From Asterochloris sp. CNOR1 (Eukaryota > Chlorophyta > Trebouxiophyceae > Trebouxiales > Trebouxiaceae), in assembly GCA_963969365.1 (NCBI GenBank), contig OZ017747.1, positions 3,720,001-3,784,000 of the forward strand: a stretch of DNA of 64,000 nucleotides, written 5' to 3'. The first letter of the stretch is position 1, and each line of letters begins with the position of its first letter. The translations under genes were made by a program, and so were the position numbers. This document shows, in pieces, positions 196-64,000 of the stretch. Below the pieces are notes generated by a model, which saw only the letters and a program-made list of their open reading frames with translations, did not search any database and was not told the DNA's origin.

Positions 196-3100
196 ATGGC
201 TGAGGAGTATTCGAGACATCTAGCTCGAGTGGTTGTCGCTCAGACTGCTGAGAGCACAGGCTTTGAGGCCGTGCAGACCTCTGCGTTGGAGGTGCTGGCA
301 GATCTGTTGTTATGCTACATTTCCCAGCTGGGCTCAGCCTCAAGCGGCTACGCCCAACAGGCTGGCAGAACAGACACCAATGTCAATGACCTGGTGCGCA
401 CAGAGCTTCAGTCGTTGCACCCTGCTGTAGATGCACTGCTCTGCAGCATGCCAGGATGCCAACTGCCAGTCCTCACGAGATGCCCTGTCTGCAGCTGCTG
501 GCCTGCGAGGACATGGGCATCTCCCTGGACGACCTGAAGCAGTATGCCAGCGCGGAGGTGCGTGCCATCTGTTGCTGGCTGCATCTGCGGAGCACAGCAC
601 AGGGCACGCTGCATTTGAAGGCATGCCTGGCCATGCGATCACCACCCTCCAGCAGGCCGCATGTCGGATCAATAATTTGGCTTTGTGCATCCCGCAGCTC
701 CCTGGGGATGCATGCTGGCCTCTTAGGGCCTGCAAACCCTGAAACAAGGCTGACATGGATGCCTGCAGGAGGAGGTGCCCTTTGCTCACCCCTTGTCTGT
801 CTACCCGGTGTCTAAGGCACCCCGCAAGGTGCCCACCTTTAGGGAGCGCAAGGAGGTGAGCAGCAGAGCATGCAGGCCCATTTGCTCTGCCCAGGTGTGC
901 ATGAAACCGATGGGTGCTCCACTTGTTGCCATGCTGTGCTTGCTACCCATGCCCCAAGAGGGGTGGCAGAAGTCTTGGCCCGCACAGTGGATGTGGGCAT
1001 TTGTGGGGTGCCAGCTCTTGCTGGGGAGCCAGGCAGGTGCCGTGGTGGCAGCCTGTGCATCTGACGGCCAGCTGTGGGCTGGTCCCATGTGTCAGATGAG
1101 CTGCAGCGCTTAGTCATAGCAGCCCAGCAGCAGCAGGCAGACTCTGAGCGACAGCAGGATACTTCTCACCTGTCTTGCCTTGGGGTTCTGGTGCGTTTCT
1201 TGTTGCATGACAACTCAAATTGTTACAAAGCACTGGTTGATGGTTGCTGCTGGCAGGCCATGCAGGACATGCAACTGCCCCATGTATGGTGGTGCAGGAA
1301 CCACCCCAGCACATCCCAGATTTCCTGCCCGCCTTCCCCGACAAGCACACGTGAGCGCTGCCCCACCCTTGACTTTGGCTGAGCAGTGACACGTCCCCGA
1401 AAGCTGCCTGACGCCCGGTTCCACAGCTGTGTTGGCTGATAGCTGTGTGCGGTGCAGCTGCTGGCTGCATGCCTGCAAGGTGCCTGTTGCTGTTTATTGG
1501 GGCCACCGGAGCTTGCACTGGTGGCATGGTCCAACCAGCCAGCAGGAAATGTAGTATACACCCTCATGTGCAGGTACATGCAGAGCGCAGCGTTCCCGGG
1601 CCACGAGAAGAATGCCAGGCAGCAGCGCCTAGCAGCAGCCAAGGCCAAGCGTCAGGTGTGGTGCTGTCGGCTCCTCCACACATGCTGGGGCAGGGACCGA
1701 GTGCAGCGTGCTTCTCAGGCTGTTCTGGAGGCTGTGCCTGCCATCCCTGCCTGCTCATCTCATGATTGCATGTGTAGCCATCTCAGCAAATGTGCTGTAC
1801 TTCGGCAGTGTAGCCTTCAGGCTGCGCACTTGGGATCTGAAGGGCCCTTCCTCAGGCAGCACCAGGCGGCAGCAGCGCAGTCGATGCGTTAATGGTCATG
1901 ATGGCACAGATCACCTTCTGATTTTCCTGCAGGCTGACAGGTCGCTGCTCAGGCAGGTCAACCGACCAATGTGCGGTTTGGTTCCTGCAGGCTAAGAATC
2001 TTCATCATTATCAACTGTGTTAAGGCTGGTCATGGTTCACCAGAGGCAGAGGCAGCATGCTGATCAACGTGCATTCTGATCCTGCAGGCTAACAAGACAC
2101 TCGTTAGGGTTCACCCGCAGGCAGAGGCCACACGCTGATCCAGTGTATTCTCAGTCCTGCAGGCTGAGAAGTCGCTGGTCAGGCTGCACCAGCAGGCGGA
2201 GGCAGCCACTGCAGCAGTGGCGCCCCGCCTGGCAGACAAGCTGCCTGCACAGTCAGGCTCCCCTCGAGCGCATGCCCTCGCAGGGGCCTCCCCCAGGCAC
2301 CAGATGCTGCCCCCCTCAGGTGGGGACGCCTGCCTGCCTCAGGTCCTCCCTGCTGTGTCTGGGTTACTTTGTACCTCTTGGAGTCCGTAGACAGGCAAGA
2401 GGTGGGTCCTGTGTCCTGTGCCCAGGCCTGTGTGAATTCATCACAGTCAGCTGCTGGCAGAGTCTGGCCAGCAACAGCTGGAGTAGTACCAGGGCCTGCA
2501 AGGCAGTGGCTTCTTGTGGGCGCCATCTGAGCACAGCATGCAATCGTCCTCGTGACCATCCAGCACTGCTTGATGCATGGCATAAGGGCCTTTCGAACAC
2601 CTGTGCGATCACCTGTTTCACTGCAGCCCTGGGCCCCCTCCATGCGGTGGCCACAGGCACACCGCATGGTGCAGGGCATGCGACACTCTGGATGTCTGTG
2701 CGATCACCTGACTGACTGGTGATGCCTGCAGCCCTGGGACCCCACCGTGCAGCCGCCACAGGCAACCCCTTCCTGGCGCGCCCCCTGTGGGAGGACTCTA
2801 GCATGCAGCCAGCAGCTGTGCCAGACGACGAGGCGCCTGACTTTGACCCTGCCGCTGCGTCCAGCCAGCATGACAGCATGGACATTGTCGAGGAGCAGCC
2901 AGATGGGGGTGCAGCAGGTGAGAGGGCGCCCTGCTCTCTGATGAACTCCACACTGGGGTGCAGCTGGTAGACTCTGAGGAGCAGTCACAGGCGTATCAGC
3001 CACCACTTGCATGAGTGTGAAGCCTTGCAGAGCTGCTTTAGCTGGAGCAGCCATGCAGGCAGCGGTTGGGAAGGCCAATTTGACTTGCAAATGCATACCT

Positions 3101-3807: not shown

Positions 3808-4345
3808 TCTCTGCACTTGACGCCTTGACTGTGACCACTTGTGTATCTTGTAATGCATGCTTACTGTATATGATGGCAGTCAAGAGCGCTTTGCCTCTTC
3901 AGCAGCAACAAGACAACTGCATGCCACATCCATACAGCATGTCTAAAGCATAGCGAAAACGGGGGCCAACAGAAATGCTGCTGTGATGGCAAACTTGCTG
4001 GTTAAGCTGCACGGTACTGGTATTGGTCTGACAGTCATTGAAGTGCACGGATCTCAGACATAGGCCGATGGCCAAAAGGGCCATCTATCTCAAAGGCATC
4101 CAGCGGATGCTGGAAGAGGGCAGCCACTCTATGGAAGGTGGGGTTTGCAGGACCCAGAACTGGCCACCTGCAGCAAGCATATTGCAAAGCATTGCCGCAG
4201 GTTCTGCAGTGCGCAGGAAAAAGATGCGGGGAGCAGGGACTGGCTGGCGAGCAGGGCCTTACAAGAATGCAGTGGCCAGGGCTGCCGAAGGAGTGTGAGT
4301 GAGCCCATGAAAGTGCTTTTGGGGCACCCCCAAACAGGCGATGCG
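3808..4345. other. Convergent 3' intergenic region, TAF8 / CHI-like
   Basis: This segment holds the 3' ends of two convergent genes. TTACA (TGTAA on the minus strand) at 4259-4263 lies 83 nt beyond the CHI-like stop and may be its poly(A) signal. An 86-codon plus-strand ORF starting at 4038 has no recognisable domain or splice context and is not called. Confidence 0.5.
3849..3853 (+). terminator. TGTAA polyadenylation signal of TAF8
   Basis: TGTAA, the usual chlorophyte poly(A) signal, lies 42 nt after the TAF8 stop codon. The position is as expected, but the motif is short, so this is suggestive only. Confidence 0.5.
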
Positions 4346-6480: not shown

Positions 6481-6549
6481 CTTAGCCTGCAGGGGCCGTC
6501 GTACACATCACAGGTGGTTTGGTACACGCTGCATCTAGGTGAGTTCTAT

Positions 6550-8163: not shown

Positions 8164-8270
8164 GGCTAAGATCGGTCACAATGTGGCCCAGAAGAAAAGC
8201 AATAGGTCACCTGAAGACGGCGGTCACTCTTCTGTGAGACAGTCTTCCTCGGTGATCCAGAGCAGCCAGG
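8164..8270. promoter_or_regulatory. Divergent promoter, lysine-rich gene / eL41
   Basis: Only 107 bp separate the two opposing start codons, so both promoters and 5' UTRs must overlap. No TATA box is obvious. Confidence 0.5.
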
Positions 8271-9144: not shown

Positions 9145-12100
9145 GCGCTTCTGGATAGAGGAGTTTGCCTTTACTGGCGGGGAAACTGCTCTGCTGAGGG
9201 CAGAGATCAAGGCGAGGCGCCAACATCAACATGCGTGTGCACATCATGCGCCTTTGAATGCCACTCATGCATGGTTTTTAGGCTGCTGGGACAGCGCCTG
9301 GGTGGCCATTGCTCTGGCTTCAACACCGCAGGAAGCATGGGCTGGCCAGCCTGCTCTGCAGCATTTGGTCAGGCAACTGGCCGCACAGCAGGGCACACAA
9401 GCTGGCCTCTGCTCTGCAGTCGGCTGGTTCCCAGGCTGCAGTGCTGTCAGGCGATGTGCGGCGGGCACGCTTTGCTGTCCGGGGCCATGCTGCCATGTCT
9501 TCCTGGGACGTTTACTGGACCAGCCGCAGGGTGAGCACTGCTCTGTGAGCTGATGCTGACAATTTCTGGCGGCAGTCACTGCTCTGTGAGCAGTGCGTCT
9601 GTGGCATGGCTGCAATGCTGGTACAAGTTGCTGCTGCCGCAGCCTGTGGTGCCTCTCAAGTGCCCACGGGCACTGACTCCACTGCTGATGTGCTGCTTTC
9701 TCCCCTCCCCCCATCATATTCTCAGGGGCATGGCTGCGGTACTGCTACAAGTTGCTGCTGCGGTCATCCCTTGGTGCCTGCCAAGTTGTTCCTTCCTCCC
9801 CAGCAGTGTCCTGACCTTCCTGGCTGTTGCTGATCCTTTGAAGCATGCACACCTGGGCAGCAGGAGTCAGTCTGGCTCCTTGCCGGTGTATGGCACTTTG
9901 GCACTCTGGAGGTAGATTCTTCCTTCCTCCCCAGCATATTCCCTGGCCTTCCTGGCCATTGCTGATCCTTTGAAACATGCACACCTGGCAGCAGGAGCCA
10001 GTCTGGCCCCGTGCAGGTGCTTGGCTGTCCGGCACCCTGGAGGCAGCTCCAGGAGAGTAGCGGTCAACATTGCCATTCTTGCGCCTAGGACTGGTCCTGT
10101 GCAGGTCTGTGAGCCCCATCAGAGGCCAGCTCAGCCCTGCTCTCCCAGGCCAGGTGTAGTGCTGCTGCCCCTGGGGCAGCCCTGCAAAGGCCCAAACCTG
10201 TGACTGCCCCACCTTGCCCAGGACACCTGCTATCGGGCCCTGCAGGCCTGCGAGCTGGCGCTGGCCCAGCACCTGGCCCCCGGACAGAAGGTCAGCTGTG
10301 TGCCAGGGTCACTGGCTATCACCTCCAAGCGCGGCTTGGCAGAGTCCATGGTGCGGTCCTACGGGCGCACAGCCTTCGCCACCACCCCCCCTTCGTGGGT
10401 TCTGCCCGAGGAGTACTGGGATTGGCGAGCCTATGTGCAGGCACAGGTGGGTGGCAGCTCGAATCAGGCCCAGTGCAGCTGGCCTTGCTGTCTGGCTGGT
10501 ACAGTGCCTGATGAGTATTGTCTCATCTTGCTCTCCGCCGTGCAGATGTGTGAGGCGGGCAGCCTGTGGGTGCTGAAGAGGGATGTACACCGCGCCCAAG
10601 GCGTCCATGTTCTGCCCTTCTGGCAGGCTTCCAAGGAGGTGCGGCTGCTGGCCCACATTTCTTGGCGTGTCTTGTCTGCGTTGGCACAACAGTCCATGCC
10701 ATTGCCCGCTGCTCAGGGAGGCAGGGATGCTAACTGTCCTGAGCAAGTGATGTCTGTGATTGCCGATACCCATTTCCTGGCAGCCATCCAGCATTATTTG
10801 CAGGCAGGTGCAAACACAGTGAGAACCTGACATCTGTGCATCTGCCCATCCATGGCAAGGGGCTGCTAGCAGCATGAGGAGCAGCACACCACACTGTCAC
10901 TGCTTGAACAGCACAACCAGCCCTGACAACCACATCCGCAGGTTACACTGCACAGCTTTGAGGAGGGACAGGCAACCCAAACTAGTTGGCTGACAGCCAG
11001 CCCTGGTGCACCATGCCAGAAACCTGGAGCCAAGACAACTTGGCCACTGCATGATCTGCTTCAGCAGGCCAACTTGCGCATTCTGCATGCTGGACGGATA
11101 GAGCCTGAGGGCAAGCACCTCACAGTCCAGTCTGTCCAGGTGCAGGGCCTGGAGGTCGGTCTGGTGCAGGCCAAGCCCATGGAGTCTCTTGCAAGCCCTC
11201 CTCTGAGCCAGAACACCTTCTGAGAGTCCAAGCTGCCAATGCTGTGCAGCCCAAAACTGATGGGCTCTGACAGCAAGCCCCTGCCTGACCAGATCTGGAG
11301 CCCTGCATGATACAGTCCTGCTGCCCCTGTGCAGGCTCAGCTGAGGGAGCTTGCCAGCAGACCTTGCTGACACCAAATCTAGGCGTGGTCCTGAGGCGCC
11401 CACCGTGCTGCCGCTGTGCAGGCCAAGCGGATGGACCCTGATGGGGAGCCCCGGCACGACCTGATTCAGCAGTACATGGGGCGCCAGCTGCACCTGGGGG
11501 GCCGCCCCTTCTACCTGCGCCTGTGGGTCCTGCTGACTGGGCTGCTGCCTCTGCGCCTGTACCTCTTCCGCGGGGGTGTCCTCATCTTCGGGGATGCAGA
11601 CGAAGCCGCAGCGCGCGATGCAGAGGTGAGGGGTCAGAGGCTGAAAGGACAGGCTGGTTAGTCTGCTAGGGGTGCCCGTCCTCACAAGCAGACATAGCTG
11701 CAGTGCGCCAGGCTCAGGTCCACCCTAAGTGTGTACTGAAAACACCAGGACGATGAAATGCAGAATTCCTCGGGTCTACTGGTGTCATGTAGCCCTCCAG
11801 GTGGTGTCAGCTGAGCTGTGGGCTGTTTGGCCAGGCTCTGCAGCGATCCCACCTGTCTTCAGCGGCACATACACTGCAAGGCCCTCCTTGGACCCAGAAA
11901 AAGTCTCCTCTGCTGCTTCTGGTTGCCCCTTGTTGCAGTCCGCGCCATCAGCAATGCATGACGCCTTCAGTGAACCACAGAACCTGTCTCCCTTGCTGAT
12001 GCAGCACTTTCAAGTGGTCAACCTGTGGACCCAGGACCGTGCCAAGTCAGACATCTGGAGTGTCCCCGAGTTTGAGCAGTACCTCGCTGCTGAGACTGGG

Positions 12101-13640: not shown

Positions 13641-13671
13641 TGCATTCAAGAATTGATGAAATGCTCACGTG

Positions 13672-16600
13672 TCATGTCTGGCTGTCAACAGACTCGTTAC
13701 TCTCTGACAGATGAGACGCACACTTGCTCTGATAGAATTGCATGGCTCCCTGGAAAGTGGTAGCAGGGAAGCGCTGCCAAAGCTGGTACCTGCTGTCAAC
13801 AAGCTTCAGGTTGGACATGGGATCGGGGCCTATAATGCTGTTAATTGCTAATTGCTGGGTCGACTTTGCCCCTGTAGAATGTCCTGAGACCCCTTGGAGG
13901 TATTGTAGAATTGTGTCCACCCCAACCAGGCCTTCAAGAACCTGCAGTGTTTTGGCAACTGGTTGGACGAAAGCATCAGTGCTGCTGAGCATGCAGCTCT
14001 GGCATCCAGCAATGACAATGGCGCTGCTGTAGCAAAGCAGCAGGGCTCTCTGACCGGTGCAGACGCAAAGCACGGCACACGCCTGCTTCCATGCTTTGCC
14101 AGGCAGTGAATGCAGGAATTGCAAAGTGTCCCCCATACACAGACAGGCTCCCTAGCTGCGCACAATGGCAGTATCACAGGGGACAGCAAGTCACCACCGA
14201 AAGAAGTTGCGAGGAGCACAACTTGCAGACATAATTGCTATTCGGGGAAACAGGAATGCAGAACGTGACTTGCACCCACAGGACATGGTGATAGTGAGCC
14301 CACCTCGCAGACGTGGTCGCTGTGCAGGGTGACAGCCAGCAGCGTGGGAAGAAGCACATGCGCCAGCTTGGGGTCGCAGAAGAATGCAAAGGGCAGGCTG
14401 CCCAGCTTGTGGATCACTGTGGGCTCCCGACCCCACAGCAGCACCTGCTGGTTGCGCGGCTCCAGCAGGGCAAAGAAGCCAATCAGCAGCAGCAGCTCCT
14501 TCAGCAGGCTCTGCACCTGCAGGGGCCAAGAGGGTGCAGCAGTCAAGCCAGAAGAGCAGCAGCAGCCCCTTCAGCAGGTTCTGCGCATGTGCACAAGCAG
14601 CAGCAGTGTTCTCAGCAGGTTCTGCATCTGCAGGGCCATGAGGAGCAGCCAGGCAAAGTGAGCAGCAGCACCTCCTGGAGATGGCTCTGCCTCTGCAGGC
14701 TGTCATGGCTTGCCCCGCTGGCGCGTGAGTGCTCTCATGTGCCTGCTTTCAAGCCTGACATCAGCTTGAAACACGTGCAGCCCCAGCTTGCCTATTGTGG
14801 GTGCTTGGTGTGCAGGATATCATGCCAAAAGAAGAGTAGTGCACACCTGGAGCCCCGGCTTGCCCCACTGGCGCGTGCACAACGTGAGGAGGTAGGACAT
14901 GACATGGAAGATCTCTACGCGCAGGTCGCTGCCCCCCAGCATGCGCTGCAGGGTGCCCAGGTCCAGCAGGGCCACATTGTTCAGCGCCCTGCAGGTGCCG
15001 CCCATCTCATCAGCGGAACTGCAAATGCAGCTACCCTGCACTAAACATCTTACATCACAGTCAACCGGCAAAGAGCTGTGTGACGCCAGGACAGCAGTTG
15101 CAGAACGGCAAACCTGGCCAGACCTATTGTAGCCACAGGGCTGAGTCCTTGCAGCACCATAAGGCAAGATGTGTCAGCCAAGCGATGGCAAGTTAGTCAG
15201 GTCAGGCTCATTGGTTAGTGCCATCACACGGGCTGGCTGCATGCGGCGCACCTGAGCACCCCCAGGGCCACGGCCACAAAGTTGGACGGCAGGGCTGTGA
15301 AGCTGGCCTCCCCTGGCGTGGCGGCCGGCGCTGTCTGAAGCAGAACAGCGGTCAACAGCGACAACATGCCAGCCAGCGACACCTCCTACACAGGGGCCAC
15401 ACAAAGCATGTGAGGGATGAGGAGCTTGAGGACGACAGCAGCTGTGCGAGAGGCTTCTACCTGCCGACTCAGAGCAAGTGCACTGCTGAGAAGTCGGGCA
15501 CCTTGTACTGTACTCACATAGCCCCTGGCTGATTTGAGGCTTGACGCAGCCGGCAGAACTTGATGCAAGAGCGCACAGCACAGCAGTGTGGTAGCAGCGC
15601 GCAATGGGTGACCTCGGTGCTGTCAGCAGCCAAATGCAGACAGGATGCCCTCAACAGGTTACAAAACACGTGCAGCGCACCCTGAACATGAGCACCATGG
15701 CTGGCGCGATGGCTGGCAGGCCCGCGCGCTGTTTGTTGGCCAGCAGGGGTAGCGCTGTTGGCAGGGCAGTCATTGCTTCCAGCAGGTGTAGGGCCTGCTC
15801 CACACAGCTGGGAAAGGGTGCGCCCTCTGTACCCTGCATGAGGACCGTTGCACCAGAGACTGACGGACATGGTCTTGAATATGCAGGCTGCCAGCCAAGG
15901 GCGTCTGGTAGGCGCGATGCCTGCTCAAATCAGCTGGGCAAGTCCCCTGCAATCCCTGCAGTGGAGTGGCGACACGATTCGGGATCCTTGGTGACCGTGC
16001 AACCAGTCAATGTCCTTGGTCAGGCGCTCACAGCATGACTTGCACCACGACCCGTGCCCCCTGCATGGTTGCTTTTATGTCCATACAGCCCTCCTCTGCC
16101 TGAGCTCAGATGAAACGGGCCAGCGCTTCAAACCTGCGAAATGCTGACAAGGTCCATCCTCTGCAGCCGGACTGCATGTGAGACTCAGCCGGTGCTCCAA
16201 CAGCTCAGTCACCTGCGGCCGGTCAAAGAGAGAGAACAGCTCGTCCACCCTGTGCACGACGCCGGCAGCCATGATGTAGCCCACGAGATCCTCTCGCATG
16301 GCCAGGAGCACGGCATCTGATACCCTGTGTTGCAGCATGCGCACCAGCACCTGCAGGCAGCAAGCCGCCTCTGCTTTTGGGCATGCAGCTTGCAAAGTCA
16401 CTGACTTTACGTCCCATGGAAACCAGAGGGGCATCTGCTACCCCTGTGCTGCGGTGGCCGCACCAGCACCTGCAGAGCAGCATGTTGCAGTGCTCTCAGG
16501 CAGGCAATCTGCAGTCCCACAACTTCCCTGGCGGGGCTAGCAGTGACACCTGTATGCAGCACCGGAACCAAGATCTGCACGACAGCAGTGGCAGGCAGCA

Positions 16601-19600
16601 TGAAGCTGCCAGGCACTCCTATGTTGCTAGGTGTGTGATGTGCCACAGGTCTTGCAGCATTGACTCGGCCACTGATCTTCAAGAGATGCTTGGCAGTGGT
16701 GTTTGACAGCATGAGCACGCATGCAACGATGGCCAGCGCAACTGTCAGGCAGCGGCTGCTGACATGCATTGCTCTGGGCGGCGACTTCATACCTTTGCCA
16801 GCCGCATGCTGCCACCTGAGCTTGTGACATGGTATAGAGCTCCTTGCAGAGTGCCCAATCACCTTGAGCAGCGCACTCAGCAGCTCTGCATCTGTACTCA
16901 GCAGCTCGCTGCCCTCCCGGCCATTGCAGCGGTCCAGGGCTGTGACTGCTTGCTGGACCAGAGGGGGCACCAAGTTCCCCGCCAGCAGGCTGCTGCAGGC
17001 AGGGGCCCACTGCAGCAGGCGTAGAAGGGTAGCACACAGGTGCAGCTCCAGCCTGCAGCCAGGGCAGGGCAGGCATGTTGCACAGCGGTCACCACCAGGC
17101 AGTCGCAAGATCTGCGGCAGGGCATGCAGGCCCAGCAGTCGCCAATTGGTAATCAAGAGCATGACCTGGGGCACGGCAGGTGCAGCTCTGAGTCTGCAGG
17201 CGGGGCAGTGCACAAGATTCCCACAGCTGCCATGCAGCAATGAAGACCATCAGTGGTTGGAGGGCAGGTGCAGCTCTAATCTGCAGCCTGGGCAGTGCAC
17301 AAGACTGCAATGAGTGAAGCTGAAAAGGGTTGGATGTGGCGGTGCAGCTCGTTAGTCACTTCTTGCCCCTCAGGAGCATGCAAGCTGAGTCAGACTGCAA
17401 CTGCCAACACTACAGATGAAATGCCGATGAAGAACAGCAACCGATGGTAGGACAGTAACTCATGACAGAAGCAGGTGCCTCACCTGTGTGGCCAGCTTGG
17501 CACAGGCTTTGCTGCCCATCCCGCTAGCAGGCCAGGAAGCCTGGCGCTGTTGGCAGCCTCCAATCCTGCCACTCCAGCAGCATCTAGGGCTCGCCCAGCG
17601 TCCAGCAGTGCTGCCACCAGCCCTGCAAGCAGCGGGTCGCGATGCCCAGTCCCACAGTGTGAGGTACAGGACCAACAGTGCTGCCTCCAGCCCTGAGGGC
17701 AAGCGCCTCCACCCTCATCCCCTGCCCTGTCACACTTGCAACAGGCTGAAGACTGGAAGATGACAAAAATGAGCGCGGGCGGTGTGTTGGTGAACTGCTG
17801 CAGACTGGAAGCGTGCGGAACACCTCCTTCTGAGCAAAACCCCTGTCGGTCAGGAAGGCAGCAAGCGACTTCAAACAAGGCACAGCTGCAGGAGGGGCTG
17901 ACCTGCGACATTGTTGCAGGCCTGGAGCTTCTCCAGGGTGCGCCGAATCCTCATGAGCTTGCTCAGAACAGCAGCCGCCTCCACTGACAGGGCCACAGGT
18001 GCTGCAGCTGCCGACACAGGCAGGGAGCCGCCCACTGCATCTGTGCCCGCAACAGCGGCAGGGGAGCTGGCCGCCAGGCTTCCCTTCCTGTCCCTGGCAG
18101 CAGGCAGGGGGGTCCTCTGGCCAGATTCCCCACCCCAGGTGCCTGCACCCTGCTGACCACCTGACCCGGCTGCCAGCTCCTCTGCCCGACGTGCCATGCG
18201 GGCCAGCAGCTTGGCGCAGCGGCGGCGCATGCCTTTCAGGCGGTTGCGCCGTGTGGCAGCCAGGGTAATGGAGCGGTCCACGGACTGCAGGGGGGACAGG
18301 GTCTCCACGCAGGGTCGCAGCTCTGGCACGCCTGCAGTGTCAGGGATGCATGTATGCTCATGCAACAGGACACAGCACACTAGTATCGCTGGGGGCACCT
18401 TTGGCTTGCTGCAGCTTGCAGACATCTGGTCGCTCTGCTGTAGGCAGCAGCAGAATGTGGCATTGGGGAGGCACCCTTGGGCTCAGTGAGGAGCACAGTT
18501 TTGTGCAGACTGCAAGAGGCCAACAGTGGTCAGGGGACTTGGAATCATCAAGGCCATGCAGCCCAAGTGCTTGAATTTTGAGAAGCACATGGTGGTATGC
18601 TACAATACTGTGAGCTGATTGTGACAAAGGGCTGCACCCGCCTGCACCCAGCATCTTATGACATGGTCGCAGCATGCACCTACATGAGCCTCCATGGCCA
18701 CATGGTGATGTCAGTGCGCTTGAAACCGCACTGCAAGAAGCATGCCATGTACACACGCTGAAGCAGTCAGGACCAGGTTTGCACGAAACAGCACACACCT
18801 TTGAGCAGGGGCGGCTTGCGGGGGGACAGCGGGGGGCAGGCCTCCCGCTCCTCCTTGCTGATGGCTGCCCGGTCGCGAATCTGCTCCAGGTGGCTGACTC
18901 TCCTCAGAGCCGCGTCCCTTAGGCGCAGGGCTAGGCGCGCTTGGCGTGCCTCCACATCCTGAAGGGAGCACACGTGGCTGGAACAGATGCCTGAATGCCT
19001 GATGTGGACCCCGATCTGAGATGCTGTAGTCTGCAAACCTGCGCTGCCATGTGCAGATGCATTGCCAGCTGGTGCATCACAGCATTCTTTAGATGACAGG
19101 CATGCTTGAGGGGCCAGAAGCAATGCTTGCCGTGGCTGGGGTGCCATGGCTGCCTTCTGCAGGCGCAGGACCAACCTCTGCCCTGTCTTTGACTGTACAG
19201 TTGAGGGATAAAGGCCAGGTCTGCATCGTGAAGAATGGCAGGAGAGCAGATGCCTCCACAAACAGATGAACAACAGCAACGCCGCAGCAACACAGGAGCC
19301 ATGCCCCTCAGTGCATGAGCGTCATATGCGCCTGGCGTCCAGTGTCGCGACATGTTCTTTTGGTATCAGCCCTCCCAACAGCACAGGGCAGGTCCTTGCC
19401 TCCTGCACTCCCTGCGTTGCAGGCCCTGTGTGCGCCTCTGGCTGGCACAGCATCATTAGGGGCGATGTCACAAAGCAGGGTGCCCGCGCCCCTGCACTGC
19501 AGGTCCTGCCTACGACTGTGGCAGGTACAACTGTCACCAGGGATGCCAGAACAAGACAGGGTGCCACTCACCTCCTCGGCTGCCCTGCGCTGCATCTCCA

Positions 19601-22600
19601 GGGTGCGCTGCTGCTGCTCTGCACGCTGCAGGCGGGCAGCCTCCGCAGCACGTCGGTCCTCCTCGAGCTTAGCAGCAGCGGCAGCCGCACGCTTCTCCTT
19701 CTCTGCAGCAGATGACTCTGTCAAGGGTCTTGTCCAAGGTCTCAAGGCATGCAGCTACTTCACTGCGCCCCGACAGTGGTCCACCAGCAGCAGCTGCAGC
19801 TGGTCCTTTTCTGCAGCAGTAGTGGACTCGGCGAAGTTCACACACTCAGGCAAGCTGCTGCCATGTGCATACTCGTAGCTTTCCAGGCAGCTGTTGCTGC
19901 AGCTGCATGCCCCTCAAATGCCTCTCAGCAGGTCCTGTGATGAGGAGCACTCTGAAACAGAGCTGCTGCTGTCTGGCAGAGCATGACTGACTCAGCAGGC
20001 CCTGATCGGCGTCGGCATCTGTCTTGATGATTATGGTCAGCTGTGCTGCTTCGGCATGCCCAGAGCACCACTGGCATTGATTTCCTTCCTGTTAGCGGAT
20101 GCAGACACTACAGCAGCCGTATGTTTGCGTGCAGATTATGCCAAAGCCTAAGGGAAGGCGGATTGTGCTAGCCGGCTGCACCTGCCAGGCGCTTCATCTT
20201 CTGAGTCTCCAGCTGCGTTCGCCGCTCAAGAGCCTCATGCTGTGCAGCCTCGCTGTCACGCTGCCGCTGCTGGATGCGAGCCAGTTGCTCCCGCCGGCGA
20301 GCTTCCGTCTCCTGCCAGGCAGCAGGCAACACCCTGTCACAAAACAGTGGTGTACAGTCCTCTGCAAACTTGGCTTCCCCTGTGCAGACAGGCCATCGCA
20401 TCAACAGGACCTGTTTGGCCAGGGGGTTTTGTTGCTGGACAGGTGGCAGGCGGCCTCGTCCAGGGGTCCTGCCGCACTCATGCCAACCATACCATGGCTG
20501 GAGGGAGTAGAGCAGGCATACATCTACACAGAAAATTGGCTCACTTTCATGGCAAAGTTCCAGCCTGGTGCCAGAAATCACGAGTCACGGGAGCTGGTGC
20601 CTTGGTGACCCATGCAGAAGGCTAGGCGAAACGATGTGCATGTGTCATTCAGAGGGTGCCCCACCCCAGCTGAACAGCAGTCCAGCCCACCTCCAGGCGT
20701 CGTTGCAGGCTGAGCTTGCGGTCCTGGTTCTGGAGCTCATTGATGAACAACACCTCATGCACCTGCAGGCACAGGGGTTGGCCTGGAGAACTGAGCCTGC
20801 GATGTGAGGCGTCTGGGGAGGCTTGCATACTTGGCCTTGGGCAGTTTGCCTGAGCAACCTGGGGAACATCTGTTAGGACGGTACAGCCCACCTTCTTGCT
20901 CTCATGGTTAGTCAGGCTGAGCTGGCATCGCAGGTGTGCTCATGCATGCACGCTGGTACCCATGCACACAACATGCATGCCTGCAGCAGCACAGGCACAG
21001 CAGCCAACCTTCATGCTCTCATCACCAGCCTTCAGCCGGATCTCACGCAGATGTGCCCGCCGCAGGTCTGCACTTCGCTGCTGGCGCTGGTTCAGCTGCT
21101 GCTGGGCTGCTGACCTGCGCTGCTGTTCCCCTGTCTGCACCGCCTGCATGCAGACAGAGCCTGCAGGCTTCAGCTCAGTCTATATGCTGGTAGGTAGAGG
21201 CCAGCCCCTGCCATGAGTTGGGAAGCAGAGCTGCTGATGCTCATCTTTCGCAGAGCCTGCATGCACAAGTGGCTTTAGAGCAGTAGCGTAGAGGCCTGCT
21301 GCTGGCCTGGCAGCGCAACTGGGCGGAGTTGCCACTCTCTGGTGAGAGCCTGACTGCATGCCCAAACCAAAGCTGAAAGTTATAGAGTGGGCTGCCTCCT
21401 GGCTGACGCATCCGGTGCATGGAAAGGGAGTCCCTGCTGCCAACGGCGCATCTGGGGGCCACTGACTCCAAAGCTGACTTCCACCCCTCAACACAACAGA
21501 GCAGGCATGCAGCAGCACAGCAGGCGCCCATCCTTCGGCCGATGTATCCCAGAGCCTGTCTCCTCTTGCCAGGGCTGATGCACCCCTTTAAAGAAGCGCA
21601 GCAGTTGGCTGCCATGTACCAGCGTTGTGCTGCAGAGCACACAGAGGTGCCTTTGCCGAGTCTGTGTGAGCCCAACTTCCTCTCAAGACAACAAACCCAG
21701 GCACCCACCTGGCGCCCCGCCTCTGCCTGCGCCATGCGCCGCCGCATCTTTGAGCCCATCTCCTCGCGGCGGTGCTGCGCCCTGGCTAGCTTGGCCTCCA
21801 TGCCCCTCTGGATCTCCAGGGGTGTGCGTCGCCGGTGCCTGTCGGGTGACATCAGCTTGCGGTGCAGCTGCGCAGCCCTGTTGTCCTGCTGGGCCTGCCA
21901 GGCCTCCTCGTCTCCTGCAGGGCAGCACAGGTCCGTGATTTTGAAAGCATCCAAGTGTAGCATGCATGCAGGATGCAACTCCTCTTCTGTAGAGCAGCAG
22001 CACCAGTGAACTTGAAGCGCATGTGCTTGCAGAGTGCACCTGGGTGGCCACATGTCCTGCTTGCGCTTTCCTTCATCTGTTCAACAGCTGGTGGGATTTG
22101 AAGTTCTGGGACATGCCAGCGATAGCTGCCCTCAGAGGTGCAGGACAATGCAGTGAACTTCAGCGGTTCTGGTGAGACTCCAGTACAGCAGTATGCATGC
22201 ATCTACAAGAGCTTGTTCGAGGTGTTTTGCAGGACGTCTGCAGTGTGACCAGTTTGTATAGTGTGACTGCTAACTGGTGCAGAAGCTCATCAAGCTCTCT
22301 GGTGCTTGGGGTCAGCATGCGTCAACTTGATTGGGCAGGCCTACAAGTCCATGTCTGAGTTTGGCAGACCTTTAGTGAGGTCCTGATATGCAGGCAGAGC
22401 TTCACCCAATATGTTTATGAAGGCAAAGGCCCACCCAGTATGTCTCTCCAGTCCCGCGGCTCAGTCCACGCTGAAGGGGCAGGGCTGCTCAGCTCTGAGG
22501 CATCCTCCTGACCTGAAGCAGCACTGCTCTGGACTAGCTCTGCAGGCTGGTGCGGACTGCAAGACACCGCATTGCTGCTGGCAGCAGGCACTGTGGGACT

Positions 22601-42062: not shown

Positions 42063-43622
42063 TCACTGTGGCTTCTGCTGCTGCGACTGGGCATACTTTC
42101 GCTGGGCTGCTTTCTTGAACTCCGGCTGGTTGCTCCACATCTTGGCTGCATCCACGTTCAGGGGGCTATCGTTGTTGGGCTCCTCCAGCAGCGACTGGAT
42201 AGACAGCAGCACCGTCCTGACGCTGTATGCTGCGCTCCAGGTCTCCTACAGGTAGGACTGCAGCTCTCAGTCAAGCAGGCTGCGCTTGTGCACATGTGGC
42301 AGTAGCACAATGTCAAGGGAGTACTTTGGGCAGCTTGCCCATCCTGGTGAAGCTGCTAGGTCACGCTCAGGGTCTCCTGCAGGTGGGGAGCAGCTCACAG
42401 TGACAGCAGATTGCTCTCTGCCTGAGCAATCTCAGGGGGTCGGCGTGACTCCACTCAAGGTGCTCCTCCTGCTGCAAACTGACAGGTTCTGCTGCCACTA
42501 TGCGTAGCAGCTCATCATGATGCACTTGGCCTTTCTGGCTCAAGCAAGTTTGTGGATGGTGGTCGCCCATACCCATGGGCATGCTCTGCCTGAAGCATCA
42601 GGCAAATTTACCTGGCATGGCCCCGCAGCATGCCTCGCAGCTGCTCAGTTCAAGCATCACTTGCACCTGTGCAGTCCAGCCAAGCTACAAGAGTCTGTGC
42701 ATCTGCATAGCACTTTATGATTTGGGCGCTGAAGCTGCCGCCTCTTGTCAAGCCAGGGAGGTTGCATCAAGAGCAAAGCCCAACAGCTGCGATCTGTCTT
42801 GCCTTAAGGATGTCCAGGCAGATAGTCCCTGTCCCATCCTCCACGTTTGGGTGCCAGCACAGGGTCTCAAACTTCACAGTGGGCGCCTTGAAGGGGTAGT
42901 CATGGGGGAATTTAAGGCTGAGCTTGTAGGTGTGCCCCTCGTACGCTGTACCGGCAGGACCCTGCAGGCAATGACCCAATCTCTGAATGTCCAGCAAGCT
43001 CCATGTCTCGCTGTATATGGTATAGGTTCAACGACCCATTGGGTGAAACGACCCATATGCTCAAAGGACTGAGTGCTGCACCAGCAGTAGGATGCAGTCA
43101 GACCATGAGTCATTTGCATGCAGCAGGTGCATCTCTCAGGCAGCACAATGCATAGAGTTGACGGCACAGGTTCATGCAGTGACATGCTGAGTCGGCCGCA
43201 TGAAGCAATCGCAGATAACATGCAGCAAGAGCAGCACGGAGCAGGATGCTGAGGGATTGGTTGCGTGCAGCAAGTGACCACATGTTGAAGCCCACCTTGA
43301 CAGTCCCAAGCCAAGAGAACAGCGAGTCCCCCGCTGGGAAGGCTGACACGCCAGGATCTGCGTTGGACATCAGCGACATGAGCTCTGACTGCAGGCGCTG
43401 CGTGACTGCATGGGTGTCGGCAACAGAGGTCTGGCGAGCTGTGCCATGCTTGGCAGGGCTGCCTGCTGCATGTGTAGCGTTCTGTGAGGCCATGCCTGGG
43501 ACTGAGGTAATGTGGGCTGGTGAGTCTGCTGCTGCTGCAGCTGCTGCACAGACTGACTGCTGGCAGGCAATGGCACAGGGGCTGGCTGGGCTGGCAAGGC
43601 CTGCAGGCACACTCCAGCTCAT
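42063..43622 (-). CDS. UBE2C: Ubiquitin-conjugating enzyme E2 C (UBE2C/UbcH10 type)
   Basis: This E2 works with the anaphase-promoting complex to start ubiquitin chains on mitotic regulators. Three exons join exactly: 43622-43296, 42961-42803 and 42245-42063, giving 222 residues. The UBC core starts [40 protein letters not shown] and [20 protein letters not shown] follow, then ICLDIL with the active-site Cys. The C-terminal part has [20 protein letters not shown], diagnostic of UBE2C. Compared with about 180 residues in animals it has a longer Ala/Ser/Thr-rich N-terminal extension of about 60 residues, and HPNVEDGTG is one residue longer than HPNVDTQG. Intron 2 is GC-AG (AAG|GCAAGA). It is divergent from the eL44 gene. 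Confidence 0.94.
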
Positions 43623-49900: not shown

Positions 49901-52900
49901 TAGCCTGACCTGCCAGCACTTCTGTGCCTGGCTGCAGATGGCCAAGCTGGGCGTGGCTCTCACCACCGGCAGAACAGGGCAGCCAGCTAGCCCAAGCTCA
50001 ATGGCAGTGGATGGCCCTGCTGCTGCAGCAGCAGCTGTCAATGGCACAGATGCAGCAGGGCTGATATCAGGGGCAGGCACGGAGGTGCAGGACGGCGATG
50101 AGGGCACCTGGGTCGAACCCCAGAGGTTCAAGTCGCTGGTGGGGAGGGGGCACGTCGAGTTCTCCACCAACAGGCAGCAGGCGAGTGACATTGGCAGCAA
50201 GCCCTGGACTTGCCTGCATAATCTACTTTGACAGCAGTCAAGGGCTGCTCTGTCTTGCTCCTGCGGTTCCCTGGCTCCCTGTGTCAGCCCGAGTGGGGCT
50301 GATCCTCTGCAGGCAGCCCTGCTGTACATTTCGAAGCTTCCCATCTGGTTTGAGCTGCTGCGTCCTGCTCGGTCTGTGGGGCCCCCCCGCCCTCCCCCCC
50401 CAATTGGAACTGAGGGTTGCTGCAAGCATGGGGCAGGCACTTGCAGTGCCTGTGCCCGGTCTCATTGCCCAGACGCGTGCCTGCTCTATATGTCCATGCA
50501 GGACTCTGTGGAGTTCTATCAGCACCTGCTGGAGCTGATGGCGAGGGCGGAGCGCACGGGGGCGCAGCGCATGGGAGTGTCTGGCAGTGCCTCCACAGCG
50601 GACCTCTTCAAGTGGGGCTGCATGCACAACCCGACCGGCTTTCGACCTCTGAAACCAGGCTGCACTGCATGCACAAACCCCTCCTGCTTCTGATGTTGCT
50701 TTGCCTGTCACAATAGGATGCTGCAGCAGGCTTGGATGCTGAGCTCCATTCACTTCATGGCTCCCACGGCATGTGGGCAAACAGCCACCCCAGAGAGAAA
50801 GGCAAATGCCTTGCATACTTTGTGCTTCTGCATCTGCTCAGCATGTGGTTGGCTCCTTTCAGCTTTGAAGGTGCATGCATGCGTCATATGGCCTCATGCG
50901 CTCCACCAAGTTTTGCATCCAATTGAAATTGTGCAGATTCCAGACGGAGGACCGCGTGCAGTGCCTGGAGTCCCAGAGAGTCAGCTACAAAAGGGCTGTG
51001 ACCAATGTGCTGCCCCTGGACATCCCCCTGGAGGCGGCCACTAACAAGGCAGAGCTGGCTGACTACCAGGTGGGCCTATCTGAGGTGCAGTCGCACTGGA
51101 GTCATGCACGCAGTCGGCCGTAGGGTGCTCACAGGCCGGATTGAGCCTCATGCCCCATCTGTGCCCCCTCTGGTGGCTGCATTGCCTCTCTTGCCACCTG
51201 GCATTGTGGATCTGGGGCTGTAAGGTTGACCTGCAGACTCCTGCCTTGCGATGAGCTGTGCAGATACCACGGCAGCTGCAGAGTGTCAGGCAGGCTGAGG
51301 CGTGGATCTGCAGGTTGATCAACAGGCTTGCCAGGGTCTCTTGTCCAGATGAATTTGTACGCTGTGCAGGAGCGGGAGAAGAAACGAGCTAAACTGCAGC
51401 AGGAGCATGCCACGGCGTACATTGGGGCCACAGCGGGCAGTAATGGCTTTGGTGCAGCTGTGACCAAGGTGGGGGCACCAGTATCTGCCAGACATTCTGC
51501 AGGCTCCCGGCCGCAGTGCCAGTCGACAGTGGCAGTCTTGCTGCGCAGCAAGTTCCACTGTGTTAGTGATGTAAACCCACCAACTCTGCCCGTGTTTGAT
51601 GACTCTGCTGCGTCCTTGGTGCCTGCTGCAAGCTTCTGTACCAACTACAAGGCATCCCTGACTGCCTGCATAGCAGGGCCCTGCAAGGTGGCAGCAGGTG
51701 CCACTCCATGCAGCAACGAGCAGCAGCCCTGCAAGAAGGAACTCTGTTTCTTACAGGACGATGGGGAGGAGCCTGTGCTGCCCAAGGTCCCCTTTGTGGC
51801 CTGCCTGGACAGGTTTGCAGCAGATGGCGGCATCCCAGACTACTACAGCGCCGCACTGGGCAGGAAGGGGCCTGCGAGGACGCGCACCCGCTTGGCCACC
51901 TTCCCACCCTACCTGATGCTCCAGATGAAGCGGTAAGAGCTGCTCAGATGTCTGCGCTATGTACAAGGAACCTGCATGCAGACGCCCTCCTCTTGAGACT
52001 TGGCTTTGAGAGATCTAGCTGACGTGGGGTGGGGCCTTGCTGCCATAGGAAAGAATGCCTGGCTGCTCTTGGCTACTGGGTGTTGCCAAGCAGTGCACAC
52101 AATGCTTCTGTATGCATCTGGCACACAGAGGTCTGCCTGCTTGGACCTCAGCAGGCCAAGTTGGTGCTGCAGGTTTTACCAGGCGGAGGACTGGACCGCA
52201 AAGAAGCTGGAGTGCCTGGTGGACCCACCTGACACGCTGCATTTGGAGGGGCTGCGCAGCAGTGGGCCCCAGCCCGGGGAGCAGATGCAGCCCCAGGAGG
52301 ATGAGCCATCACAGCCTGCAGGTAGGCAGCTTCTGGGATGTTGGGACCAGGAGGACGAGCGGTCACAGCCTGCAGGTGGGCTGCTTCTGGAAAGTTGGGA
52401 CCAGGAGGACGAGCAATTACAGCCTGCAGGTGGGCTGCTTCTGGAAAGCTGGGACCACCACCTGGTGCAAAGGGAGATGGGTACCTCTCATGGGGCGGCA
52501 CAGCCTGCAGGCAGGCAACTGAAGCACTCCCTGTAATGATGCTCAGGACTCACTGGGAAACAAGCATGTGCAGCTGCGCTGTCTCAAGTGCATGAGCAGG
52601 CCCATCCCCTTGTGCTAGTGGCCAGAATAGATATAGGCACACTCTTGGAGAATGGTGGGCAGGGGGCCAGATAAAGTGCAGGCAGGCACGCCTGACATTG
52701 CAGAAATCAGGAAGTGCAGCCTCCAGGTGGCTGAATGTGAAGTTGGCATCGCTCACTTGCAGCTTGAGCACGCACTCTTCAAGGATTGCACCTGCACATG
52801 ATGCTAATCATGTGTTGATCGCTGGATTGCTTTTGCAGCATTGCCTTGGGAGCATCCAGCTTGAGGCTGCTGGCTGGGTGCCACCTGCTGATTCAACATG

Positions 52901-54779
52901 CACTGCTGTGCAGCCTCTGCTGCCAGCAGCAATGTTTAGCTCTCTTGTGATGCTGCAGGTGCCCCAGCTGCCGCCCCCCCACCACAACCCAATCCTGAGA
53001 TAGTGACGCAGCTCACAGCCATGGGCTTCTCTGAGAACGGCAGCAAGAGGGCTGCAGTGGCCACACAGGTGACCAGCCAACCAGAGAGTGAGACTGCAGC
53101 AGCCTGTGGGACAAATGACCTTGTTGGCACCTGCACCTAGCCCGCTTCAGATAGATTGGAAATGTAAGGCTCCCTGAGAAACCACACCGTCGCTGCAGCA
53201 CACGCACAGGCCTAGTTTGGCTGTGGCGGGTGCATGAGGAGCTCGTGTTAGTGTTAAAGGGTGCTGTAGTTCGCAATTCCGATTGCTAAGTCTGCCCCAG
53301 AGGCGGCGCAGTTGCAGAAGCACCCTGAGGGTCTTGCAGGCTCTAGAGTGCTGCTGTGGCACGCCCAGGGAGTCTTGGGTCGTTGACCAGTTGCTCCTCT
53401 CTGAGTGCAGAGCACAAGGGTGGACGTGGACGTGCAATAGGTCTTGACTTGTGCTGGCGTAGCCCGCAGGAGGTCCCATGCTGCCTGCCAGGGGTTTGAA
53501 GGGCACTGCACAGATGTTGTATGGGACCCCGCGCTTGTTCTGGTCTGTCTTGCTGATGCGGGAGGTGTCATGCTGCTGCAGCCCACTCAGTGGAGCTTGG
53601 GTCTCTTTGGGACTTTGCAAAGGCATGAAGGCGGTCCACTCTTGCTCTCGTCTGGCTGCAGAACGCAGGGGTGGAGCCAGCCATGCAGTGGGTTTTGTCC
53701 CACATGGATGACGACAACTTCAATGAGCCCCTGGAAGCCCCTGCAGCCGCTGCTGCCCCCGAAGGCCCAGCCCCTGACAAGGATTCCCTTGTGATGCTGG
53801 TCAGTATGGGCTTCACAGAATCACAGGCCGCAGCAGCCCTGAAGGTGGGCAACTGAGCGCAGTGCTGGTGGTCTGCATTGTACTCGAGGTGTTGTTGGCG
53901 CCATCAGGGGGGTCCAGCAGCCCTGAATGAAAGGGAGAGCCGTGCTGGCGCCGCCTGGGTAGCTTGCCGGGCTGCAGGCGCAGCAACCAAGTTGAACAAG
54001 CAGCAGGAGTCACCAGGCATGCCCAGGCGGGGTGTTTCAGCAGGCATGCCAATGGGGCTGTCTGCTTGGGGCACTGCCACAGTCGCCTCTCAGTGTGTAC
54101 GCCATTGGCATGCCATGAGTGAGGCATGATTCCTCTGGAAGAAGCCTGCAGGACAGGCTTAGGCTGCTGCCTGGATGCACCCTGAGTCACGTCCATAGAC
54201 AGGGTGTGCACTGCTCCTGCAAAATGCCTCACGTGACCCCATTTGCTGCCGTGACCCTCTGCAGGCCTGCCATGGGAGCCTCGAGCGAGCAGCAGACTGG
54301 CTGTTCAGCCATGCAGACGACCTAGACGCTGCAGTGGCATCAGTAAACAAGCCGGCAGGAGTCGCGCCAGCTGCAGCCGCAGAGCCATTGACAGGTAGCA
54401 CCCTTGCTCTGAAGGGTGTCGGCCAGGCATTGCTGCTCACGGACTTCTTCAGGATGGCGCTGTCGTCCCCCAGGCATTGCATGGTGGCACAATCCTATTC
54501 CTGCCAAGCCCCAGCAGCGCATGTATGCTACGCGTCACCACCATGGTGTTGCTGCAAGAGCTTGCTGTCGTGCAGGACCTGATCTGGACGATGGGCCAGC
54601 GCAGTACTCGCTAGTCGGCTTCATCAGCCACCAGGGCCGCAACACAGGCTGCGGGCATTATGTCTGCCACATCAAAAAGGATGGCCGTTGGGTCATCTTC
54701 AATGACGAGAAGGTGGCAGTGTCCCAGAAGCCACCCAGGGAGCTAGCTTACATGTACCTGTATCGGCGTGACACTTGAC
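46952..54779 (+). CDS. UBP14: Ubiquitin carboxyl-terminal hydrolase 5/14 (USP5/UBP14)
   Basis: USP5 disassembles free polyubiquitin chains. Order of parts: start [21 protein letters not shown]-terminal UBP-like domain [20 protein letters not shown] (47160-47320) and [20 protein letters not shown] (47640-47800); zf-UBP region [16 protein letters not shown] and [18 protein letters not shown] (48060-48675); catalytic Cys box [20 protein letters not shown] (49568); [11 protein letters not shown] (50150); [19 protein letters not shown] (51790-51860); UBA1 [20 protein letters not shown] (53000); UBA2 [18 protein letters not shown] (53790); [19 protein letters not shown]; and the His box [20 protein letters not shown]. 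It ends [11 protein letters not shown]. The catalytic Cys, His and Asn/Asp positions are intact. The zf-UBP keeps only one of the usual zinc ligands. A 54-bp tandem repeat with donors lies before UBA1. Confidence 0.94.
52297..52458 (+). repeat. 54-bp tandem repeat carrying exon end plus donor (USP5)
   Basis: Three copies at 52297, 52351 and 52405 each read GAGGA-GAGC...ACAGCCTGCAG|GT, so donors occur at 52322, 52376 and 52430. The unit is 18 codons and stays open, giving QEDE-xxQPAG repeats if downstream donors are used. Joining any of them to the acceptor before 52960 keeps the frame into UBA1. Confidence 0.88.
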
Positions 54780-61828: not shown

Positions 61829-64000
61829 AGCAAGCCCAAGGCCAAGGGTGACCCTCACGAGGAGCCCGCCGTGGCCAAGGCAGCAGCCCTCCGCCAGACC
61901 TCGCTGCCCGTGGGCTTGTCCTACCACCTGCCCACAAGCGGGCCCCTCACCCCCAAGCAGTACAGGGAACGCCTGACCTGCAGTGACGGCACCCAGCACG
62001 TCTTCCTGCCCCAGTCCAAGTGGGTGCCAGCTTGCGCATCACCGTGCACTCACCCTGCTTCACCGCACTCACCAGTCCAACTGGGTGCAAGCTTGCGCAT
62101 CACTGTGCACACACCCCGCTCCAGCGCCCCAGCCCAAGGAGTGCAAGACTGTATATCACTGTGGGCACGTCCCACTTCACTGTCTGTGCCAAGTTTTGCC
62201 CTGGTCTGCCTGAGACCCTCAGCTGTCACAAGCTCCTTGCGCCAAGGGGCATGCATCCACAGCAGTTCCGCGGCCTGGCAGGCAGCAGCCCAGGGCAGTG
62301 CTTGACTGCGCAAGCTCTGCCTCACTGCACTGGAGCCATACAGGTGCTGGCCTGCTGCACAGGGAAGGGCAGTGTTGCTCGCTCGCATGGTGGCTGAGAC
62401 ATAGCCCTGGACCTGCAGCAAGAGGTGAATGTACCACATGTTATGCAATGTGCCGGTGCAGGTTCCAGGTGCGCTGGGCCTCCGTCAGCCAGCGTGGGTA
62501 CTACCCTGATGCACTGTACAAAGCCAATCAGGACTCGGTGACAACCTGCAGCAGCTTTGGGAACGACCCGGAGCAGCTGTTCTTTGGCATCTTCGATGGC
62601 CATGGCAGCAATGGGGCACAGTGCTCCCAGTTCGCTCGAGAGCATGTGAGCTGAGCTGGCGGGATGCTCTGCTCCCTGGCGGAAGGCCTGTCTTGAGCTC
62701 AGCTCATCGCAGCCTGTGTGCAGAGCAATGTGGCGCAGGATCGTCCTGTTGTGTACAAGATCGAGTGAGCCCGTGTTGGCACTCCAGTGAGCCAGCATGG
62801 GGTTTCATGCGAGCCCTTTTCATTGGTCTCCAAAATGCCTATACATGGCTGGAGGTCAGCAGCTGCAGGAGTGCTCTCTTGCAGCCTCTGTCATGGTGGG
62901 AATGGAGCAGGCGATATTGAGGCCCCTCAAGTGCGAGCAGGATGTTGCATCACTGAGCTGAGCAGCGCAGCTTTGGACATCTGTGGCTGCATTTAAGGAT
63001 GCAAACAGAGTCACAAGCGCCAAGATGTTGACGGGCTTACCTGACAGTCACACATCCAGAGCATCCTCTGTATTGTGGGAGTTTACATTAGCCTCGGGCT
63101 ACATCATCTCAGGCTGCCTTGGCACCTGTACTATGCATGGCTTGCTCGGGGCACCCAGGTCCAAGACACAGGTCATGCAACTCAATGTAAGCTGAAGGAG
63201 TCCTAGCGCCTGTCTGCAGTGGCTTCACACCATGCTGGAGCACTGCACATGTCATCAACTCAGGGTCAGCGCCTCATCGACTCAGGCTCACTGCTCCCCT
63301 GCTTGTGTCTGCAGGTTCCCCAAGCCACGTTGCATGTCATGGTGTTCAAGCTATACATGAGCCTGACCTGTCCTGTCACATGAGAAATGGACATGCCCAG
63401 GGGTCACAACTGCTCGGCCCATGCCTGCAGGTCCCCCAGGCCATGTTGCGCGATACGCTCTTCAAGCACCAGCCCGAGCAGTCCTTCCACAACGCAATGG
63501 TCCTGGCCAACCATCTGCTGCATGAGGCAGACCTGGACGATACCATGAGCGGCACCACAGCCATCAATGTCCTCCTTCGGGGGAACATGCTGTATGTGGC
63601 CAATGTTGGGGACTCTCGTGCGGTGCTGGCTGAGCGACAGGGGGACGGCCATGTGGCCGTGCCCCTGTCGATGGACCAGACGCCCTTCAGGTGGGCTGAC
63701 TGGGCATTCAGCTGCTGCCTGGCAGGAGGCACCTGTTACTCTGAGAGTGGCGCTCACCACCTGGGCACCAGTCAAGCAGCAAGCTTGCACTGGTGTCTGC
63801 ACTGGCTGAGCATCATGGGGAACCCCCTGTGGCTGTACCCCTGTCAAGCCCCTTTTCAGGGTCTGCGTGGCTGATGACACAGCCTGTCCCGTTCCCTACA
63901 TTGGAAGATTCTTCAGGTGGGCTTGCCTGCTGCTGCTGGGGATGAGAGCACAGCCAGTCTGACAGCCATGGGCCTGCTCTACCCTGCCTCTGAACTAGTT
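61829..64000 (+). CDS. PP2C phosphatase with cyclic-nucleotide-binding and kinase domains, 5' part
   Basis: The visible exons match the start of the plant family that fuses a PP2C phosphatase to cyclic-nucleotide-binding and protein kinase domains. SKPKAKGDPHEEPAVAKAAA is followed by PLTPKQYRERLTCSDGTQHV (61829-62018). The next exon (62460-62646) has SQRGYYPDALYKANQDSVTT and LFFGIFDGHGSNGAQCSQFA, with the metal-binding DGHG. An exon from 63431 gives LANHLLHEADLDDTMSGTTA and NMLYVANVGDSRAVLAERQG, ending SMDQTPF at about 63690. These are PP2C motifs with conserved Asp. The kinase and CNB parts would lie beyond 64000, so that fusion is inferred from family similarity (SQRGYYPxALxKANQDS is its hallmark). 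The start is not determined. Confidence 0.8.
62011..62140 (+). repeat. Decayed copies of a PP2C exon end and donor
   Basis: CCAGTCCAAGTGGGTGCCAG at 62011 holds the true exon end and donor. CCAGTCCAACTGGGTGCAAG at 62072 and a weaker ccagcccaaggagtgcaag at 62129 follow. The second has lost the GT. Confidence 0.82.
63308..63475 (+). repeat. Decoy copy of a PP2C exon start
   Basis: TCTGCAGGTTCCCCAAGCCA at 63308 repeats the true junction CCTGCAGGTCCCCCAGGCCA at 63424, 116 nt upstream. Matching continues to TTCAAGC in both. Confidence 0.88.
63640..63925 (+). repeat. Copies of a PP2C exon end in the following intron
   Basis: The true exon end (GTGGCCGTGCCCCTGTC to CCCTTCAGGTGGGCTG, 63651-63698) is echoed at about 63827-63873 (GTGGCTGTACCCCTGTC then TTTTCAGGGTCTG, with TGGCTG) and, for the last 20 bases, at about 63908-63930 (ATTCTTCAGGTGGGCTTGCC). 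Confidence 0.7.

Follow-up and report, generated by a model that had tools for sequence, protein, structure and literature searches.

Near direct repeats at exon-intron junctions in a 64,000-nucleotide window of the Asterochloris sp. CNOR1 genome: local duplication, selection and one-sided decay as the best reading

In a 64,000-nucleotide (nt) stretch of contig OZ017747.1 of the green alga Asterochloris sp. CNOR1 (positions 3,720,001 to 3,784,000 of the forward strand; this whole stretch is called the window), many of the introns hold old, degraded copies of the exon edge and splice site that border them. These junction copies are direct and short, are mostly 70-95% identical to their source, and lie near their own junction. 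The near direct-repeat observation is real in the window, and so is the bias of the repeats toward junctions. A preliminary description of the window had proposed that local tandem duplication, passed through a selection filter, would produce such copies. Our best reading is the same: ordinary short tandem or near-tandem duplications, together with selection and one-sided decay, are the probable cause of most of the copies. This reading offers two candidate reasons for the junction bias that would require no specialised machinery, namely the removal of duplications from exons and the drift of only one member of each junction pair.

Ungapped direct matches scoring at least 16 numbered 42 at offsets of 10-600 nt, compared to 0 at 591 random far offsets. 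The match in a gene's own intron beat every control intron from other genes for 16/153 junctions, 0/120 exon interiors, and 6/112 intron interiors (tested with exons of at least 20 nt and introns of at least 80 nt); 2 of the 6 winning intron-interior windows, those beside 14699 and 39337, are probably junctions, judging from hand curation. At a fixed score of 16.5, direct copies were found for 11/153 junctions and inverted copies for 0/153. Dinucleotide-shuffled introns, the comparison proposed in the preliminary description, gave a mean of 0.2 and a maximum of 1 at that score over 20 sets, so the refutation proposed there did not materialise. Inverted or dispersed copying was rejected on the 0/153 inverted copies and the 0 far matches. 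Loose gapped alignments ran through unrelated sequence at approximately 60% identity; their lengths were not used, and stricter alignments were taken instead.

Fixed-score windows, scanned in introns of up to 2500 nt (the limit also used for the simulations described below), were matched in 21/270 cases at junctions, 16/564 in intron interiors, and 0/204 in exon interiors. On the exon side, 13/134 windows were matched at the junction and 8/136 when centred 25 nt into the exon, and the 0/204 refers to windows centred 50-75 nt inside. From 75 to 200 nt into the intron, the counts by distance were 7/128, 1/126, 3/116, 4/108, and 1/86. A looser measure, scoring windows whose match beats all controls, gave 16/136 at the junction, 5/205 in exons, and 5-9 per 88-130 windows in introns beyond 60 nt. 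Repeats are therefore nearly absent inside exons; the claim that copies never face into exons holds at the fixed score but not by the looser measure. By base coverage the junction bias is weaker than by window counts, as near repeats cover 8.1% of bases at exon/intron edges (both sides), 4.1-6.8% beyond 60 nt in introns, 3.9% outside modelled genes, and 1.8% deep in exons. When repeats with offsets of up to 350 nt were clustered, 11/26 clusters spanned a junction of the gene-finder models, a number that rose to about 17-19 with hand-curated exons; the last two of these lie at 63690, where the match is just inside the exon edge, and at 17622, where the coding score is negative. Clusters away from junctions numbered 15/26 by the gene-finder models; hand curation lowered this to about 7-9. 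Intron interiors and stretches without a modelled gene also carry repeats of this kind. The interpretation given in the preliminary description is partly supported; the undescribed, junction-specific system that it raised is unlikely and not required, since interiors carry the same repeats.

All 13 sites named in the preliminary description are near direct-repeat pairs scoring at least 14, and their exon-copy to intron-copy offsets range from 54 to 252 nt. We found six further junction-copy sites, in the TAF8, TTL, SCAPER, CUE, ubiquitin-conjugating-enzyme (UBC), and USP5 genes, which confirms that the phenomenon is somewhat larger than first reported. At least nine genes had been claimed and seven named; adding the TTL and UBC genes makes nine. 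The sites are listed below as ungapped near direct-repeat pairs, with pair coordinates given as exon copy/intron copy and with "new" denoting absence from the preliminary list.

1925-2203, plus strand: TAF8, exon start at 2163 with its acceptor; copies 2080-2128 and 1925-1954; pairs 2155/2080/1925; the 75-nt array covers 1.39 units.
2601-2764, plus strand: TAF8, exon start at 2732; copy 2621-2659; pair 2732/2627; the remaining unit is also similar; new.
11164-11440, plus strand: TTL-family gene, exon start at 11422; copies 11319-11353 and 11164-11183; pairs 11422/11335/11170; new.
14485-14699, minus strand: SCAPER-like gene, start of exon 14304-14516; three upstream copies at 14555, 14596, and 14661; exon coding score 13.9.
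14707-14877, minus strand: SCAPER-like gene, end of exon 14847-14988; copy 14707-14727; pair 14857/14707; the ungapped match stops approximately 10 nt inside the exon.
16323-16475, minus strand: SCAPER-like gene, start of the exon ending at 16350; copy 16442-16475; pair 16350/16469; new.
17037-17304, minus strand: SCAPER-like gene, exon start at 17052; copies near 17193 and 17280; pair 17037/17265; coding score 4.0 (moderate).
17602-17695, minus strand: possible exon start at 17622, uncertain; copy 17672-17695; coding score -4.3.
20884-21022, minus strand: SCAPER-like gene, exon end at 21009 with its donor; copy 20884-20905; pair 21001/20884; coding score 1.6, without stops.
29205-29455, minus strand: CUE/Smr gene (Pfam CUE), start of exon 29064-29210; copies at 29347 and 29426; pairs 29205/29347 and 29211/29426.
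30257-30449, minus strand: CUE/Smr gene, start of exon 30236-30284; copy 30416-30449, AG lost; pair 30284/30443; coding score 2.1; new.
35325-35468, plus strand: SEC61A, start of exon 35453-35650; copy 35325-35343; pair 35450/35325.
36064-36293, plus strand: SEC61A, exon start at 36256; copy 36139-36186 and a 12-nt exact trace at 36064; pair 36246/36139.
39396-39672, minus strand: LCAT-like gene, exon start at 39417; copy 39648-39672; pair 39396/39648; coding score 16.6.
42218-42417, minus strand: UBC gene, exon start at 42245; copy near 42364-42387; pair 42245/~42376, with a score of only 15.0; new.
52293-52520, plus strand: USP5, exon end/donor at 52321/52322; 54-nt copies at 52347 and 52401 (donors 52375 and 52429); weaker copy at 52499.
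53391-53697, plus strand: USP5, start of exon 53662-53844; copy 53391-53446; pair 53662/53411; new.
62011-62179, plus strand: PP2C, exon end at 62019; 61-nt copies; pair 62011/62072; decoy GT lost.
63285-63467, plus strand: PP2C (Pfam PP2C), start of exon 63431-63690; copy 63285-63351; pair 63401/63285.
63626-63845, plus strand: PP2C, last part of exon 63431-63690; copy 63802-63845; pair 63626/63802; the ungapped match stops approximately 20 nt inside the exon edge.

The window has a G+C content of 58%. To model genes, we took the window itself as training data for a hidden Markov gene finder, seeded it with window peptides, and ran it with stricter costs; its output was 11 models with 96 exons. 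SEC61A and USP5 were identified by matches to solved structures along nearly the entire protein (E 3e-199 and 3e-176, respectively). Pfam matches were obtained for TAF8 (TAF8_C), TTL, CUE, SecY, PP2C, and a metallo-beta-lactamase-type protein, the UBC gene had a clear match (UQ_con, E 8.5e-29), and the LCAT-like gene scored 20.9 bits, just below the cutoff of 21. The UBC gene (42067-42963, minus strand) sits between the LCAT-like gene and eL42. The SCAPER-like gene had zero matches in the Pfam search and is supported by its coding score; the name SCAPER, used in the preliminary description, is presumptive. Model errors included the merging of eL42 with USP5 and a spurious exon at 14699. Multiple gene models were mended, and several SCAPER, LCAT, and UBC exons were curated by hand. 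A transfer RNA scan of the window found none.

The duplications that we propose, each of tens of nt, would arise when repair fills in and reseals a single break or two nicks, and they would land in noncoding DNA and across exon-intron junctions. Those inside exons would wreck the protein and be lost. Where one falls across a junction, the gene would keep one splice site and the extra copy would turn into intron, thereby lengthening it; selection would then hold the exonic member of the pair almost unchanged, leaving the intronic member free to drift. Junction pairs should consequently stay recognisable longer than wholly intronic pairs, because only one of their members drifts. What is observed is the repeats, their direct orientation, the junction excess, and the scarcity within exons; that the copies are neutral, arose through repair, and have an old age distribution is what we infer. 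Two consequences named in the preliminary description can be read from the sequence itself: introns are lengthened, and decoy splice sites are present.

Simulated duplications under four age and unit settings gave mean junction-to-interior ratios of 1.4, 2.0, 5.2, and 2.5, compared to 2.7 observed. The 1.4 came from ages reaching down to 0.05, and the ratios of 2.0, 5.2, and 2.5 came from old events (intron divergence of approximately 0.12-0.3 since duplication) with short units, with match scores resembling the data. Identity within repeat pairs had a median of 0.86, and only 4/57 listed pairs, all 15-21 nt long, reached at least 0.95. The scarcity of very similar pairs and the centring of identities on 0.86 fit old events and thus back the old-age settings.

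As complete tandem duplications would, 11/41 pairs span at least 85% of one repeat unit. Notable among them are USP5, PP2C at 62.0 kilobases (kb), TAF8, and the TTL array, and USP5 (54 nt) and PP2C (61 nt) form clear arrays. Similarity in the remaining pairs is limited to the junction and edge; in these other, incomplete pairs the copy may be a patch from nearby sequence without tandem arrangement, or a tandem copy that later insertions have divided. Two tandem arrays lie elsewhere in the window. One, with a 131-nt unit, occupies 9536-10046, without a modelled exon, upstream of the first clear exon of the TTL-family gene, and a small one at 41010-41134 (offsets 36-77 nt) is in an intron of the LCAT-like gene but not at a junction.

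Several results weigh against duplication, selection, and one-sided decay as a full account. Uniform-age simulated duplications seldom reached the observed junction-to-interior ratio (5/120 and 7/160 replicates), and the old-age settings were picked after the uniform-age ones had failed. Even among old-age replicates, the ratio and the absence of exon-interior matches were jointly reproduced in only 3/160 (2/40 in the best setting). Match footprints placed at random under a selection filter gave 3.4 junction cases (standard deviation 1.7), compared to 11/21 seen, and a first decay model of the junction bias yielded P values of 0.000-0.004. The exon part of the copies is shorter than in most simulations. 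Acceptors were copied more than donors (9/77 versus 2/76), perhaps as an effect of detection. Of the 13 incomplete junction pairs, only 3 have an intervening stretch that resembles the flank (P < 0.05). Simple tandem duplication at the observed spacing predicts such similarity, so the missing remainder counts against it unless later insertions split the copies. Finally, decoy splice motifs are kept at 84/88 positions, where neutral simulations sharing the detection bias expect 87-90% retention (P = 0.007, 0.011, and 0.061, depending on the age setting).

Some of these points would be met by a mutational process aimed at exon-intron junctions, in which nicking, pausing, or template switching at words like CTGCAG copies sequence into the intron. 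The excess of junction bias over the uniform-age simulations, the short exon parts, and the absence of the rest of the unit in 10/13 incomplete pairs all favour such a process. We nevertheless consider it unlikely. Old, short duplications yield the same ratio, most interior pairs lack a CTGCAG-type motif by eye, and intron words are strand-symmetric, with TGCAG at 7.65 versus 8.34 per kb. This symmetry indicates that introns are not packed with sense junction copies. Copying anchored at CTGCAG was considered as a candidate in its own right and is unsupported by the interior pairs, as judged by eye, or by strand symmetry. The word itself is common: intron interiors contain 3.9 per kb, approximately 12 times what base composition predicts, and the corresponding excess for exons is 7 times.

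The retention of decoy motifs bears on a different proposal, that the use of their splice sites as alternative acceptors or donors is what preserves the intronic copies; from the sequence data we regard this as rather improbable. In its favour, motif retention at 84/88 positions compares with 79% identity in the exon parts of the copies and 84% in the intron parts, and it exceeds the neutral expectation at the P values given above. AG is kept in 11/12 correctly placed decoy acceptors, and 8/12 reach at least the median score of real acceptors in a site-strength model trained on the window's own real splice sites; GT is kept in 2/3 donor decoys. Five decoy rows with off-by-one junction placement were left out of these counts. 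The 54-nt copies in USP5 are also in frame and open: from its exon end, the gene carries an in-frame repeat every 54 nt over 52293-52470, with the frame open through 52470, and splicing from putative donors 52375 and 52429 would lengthen the protein by 18 and 36 residues, respectively. However, the decoys at CUE 30284 and PP2C 62019 have lost their AG and GT, respectively, CTGCAG is frequent throughout introns anyway, and the exon-derived parts of the copies also diverge at codon positions 1 and 2. Mismatches at positions 1, 2, and 3 were 14/101, 20/96, and 26/95, a spread that does not give the intronic copies the look of protein constraint, and the rise at the third position can be explained by synonymous drift of the exon. 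Motif retention hints at splice use, or at a word that resists mutation, but proves neither.

A combined proposal, in which junctions of this genome are hot spots of local duplication and use preserves the spare splice sites, leaving a reserve of alternative junctions beside approximately 1 in 10 junctions of the window, strikes us as quite improbable. It is very improbable that the copies are relics of intron birth via tandem duplication of an AGGT-containing exon piece, a known route of intron gain (PMC3443670). Under the AGGT model, the donor end of the intron should carry a copy of the start of the downstream exon, but the distance between the observed copies and the junction that they duplicate is 54-252 nt, and most of the introns concerned measure about 460-790 nt; one possible exception is the TTL copy at 11170, located 15 nt away from its intron's donor. 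Direct, short copies near their own junction therefore do not point to intron birth by AGGT duplication. Chance similarity through repetitive word usage or misplaced exons, which the abundance of CTGCAG in introns and the mending of several gene models might suggest, is hardly credible, as control introns share these words and yet are beaten, shuffled introns average 0.2, and the SEC61A and USP5 exons are fixed by homology.

If duplication, selection, and one-sided decay produced the copies, then junction copies are a datable record of intron growth; the exon member is fixed by selection, so each copy would carry a built-in clock and a known ancestral sequence. They would also show how decoy splice sites arise and persist. 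Should the junction bias hold among young events genome-wide, it would suggest that mutation has a source linked to splicing.

Tandem exon duplication and duplication-born alternative splice sites, like the window copies, involve a duplicate splice site accompanied by exon sequence. Unlike in tandem exon duplication, the window copies carry only the exon edge and not the whole exon. Among the papers listed in a partial literature search, none dealt with algal introns that carry junction copies. Insertions by short tandem or near-tandem duplication have been described as a class (PMC8355091, PMC7407515); the former gives tandem duplications as the commonest short insertion in the human genome, and the latter describes for rice (Vaughn and Bennetzen 2014) insertions that are wholly or partly tandem and others that derive from sequence within 200 base pairs (bp). 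The window copies are direct, short, and nearby, like the rice break-repair insertions (PMC7407515) and the CST-Pol alpha tandem duplications (PMC8355091), and full tandem arrays stand beside non-tandem copies from within about 200 bp, like those attributed to break repair in PMC7407515. Unlike break-repair duplications, those of the window are seen only as old scars, and these cluster at splice junctions. A further parallel is intron gain through tandem genomic duplication (PMC3443670, PMC2891723), in which the duplication likewise involves splice-site-like sequence in genes. That route differs in that here existing introns are lengthened, and the copies lie beside the junction that was copied rather than at the opposite end of the intron.

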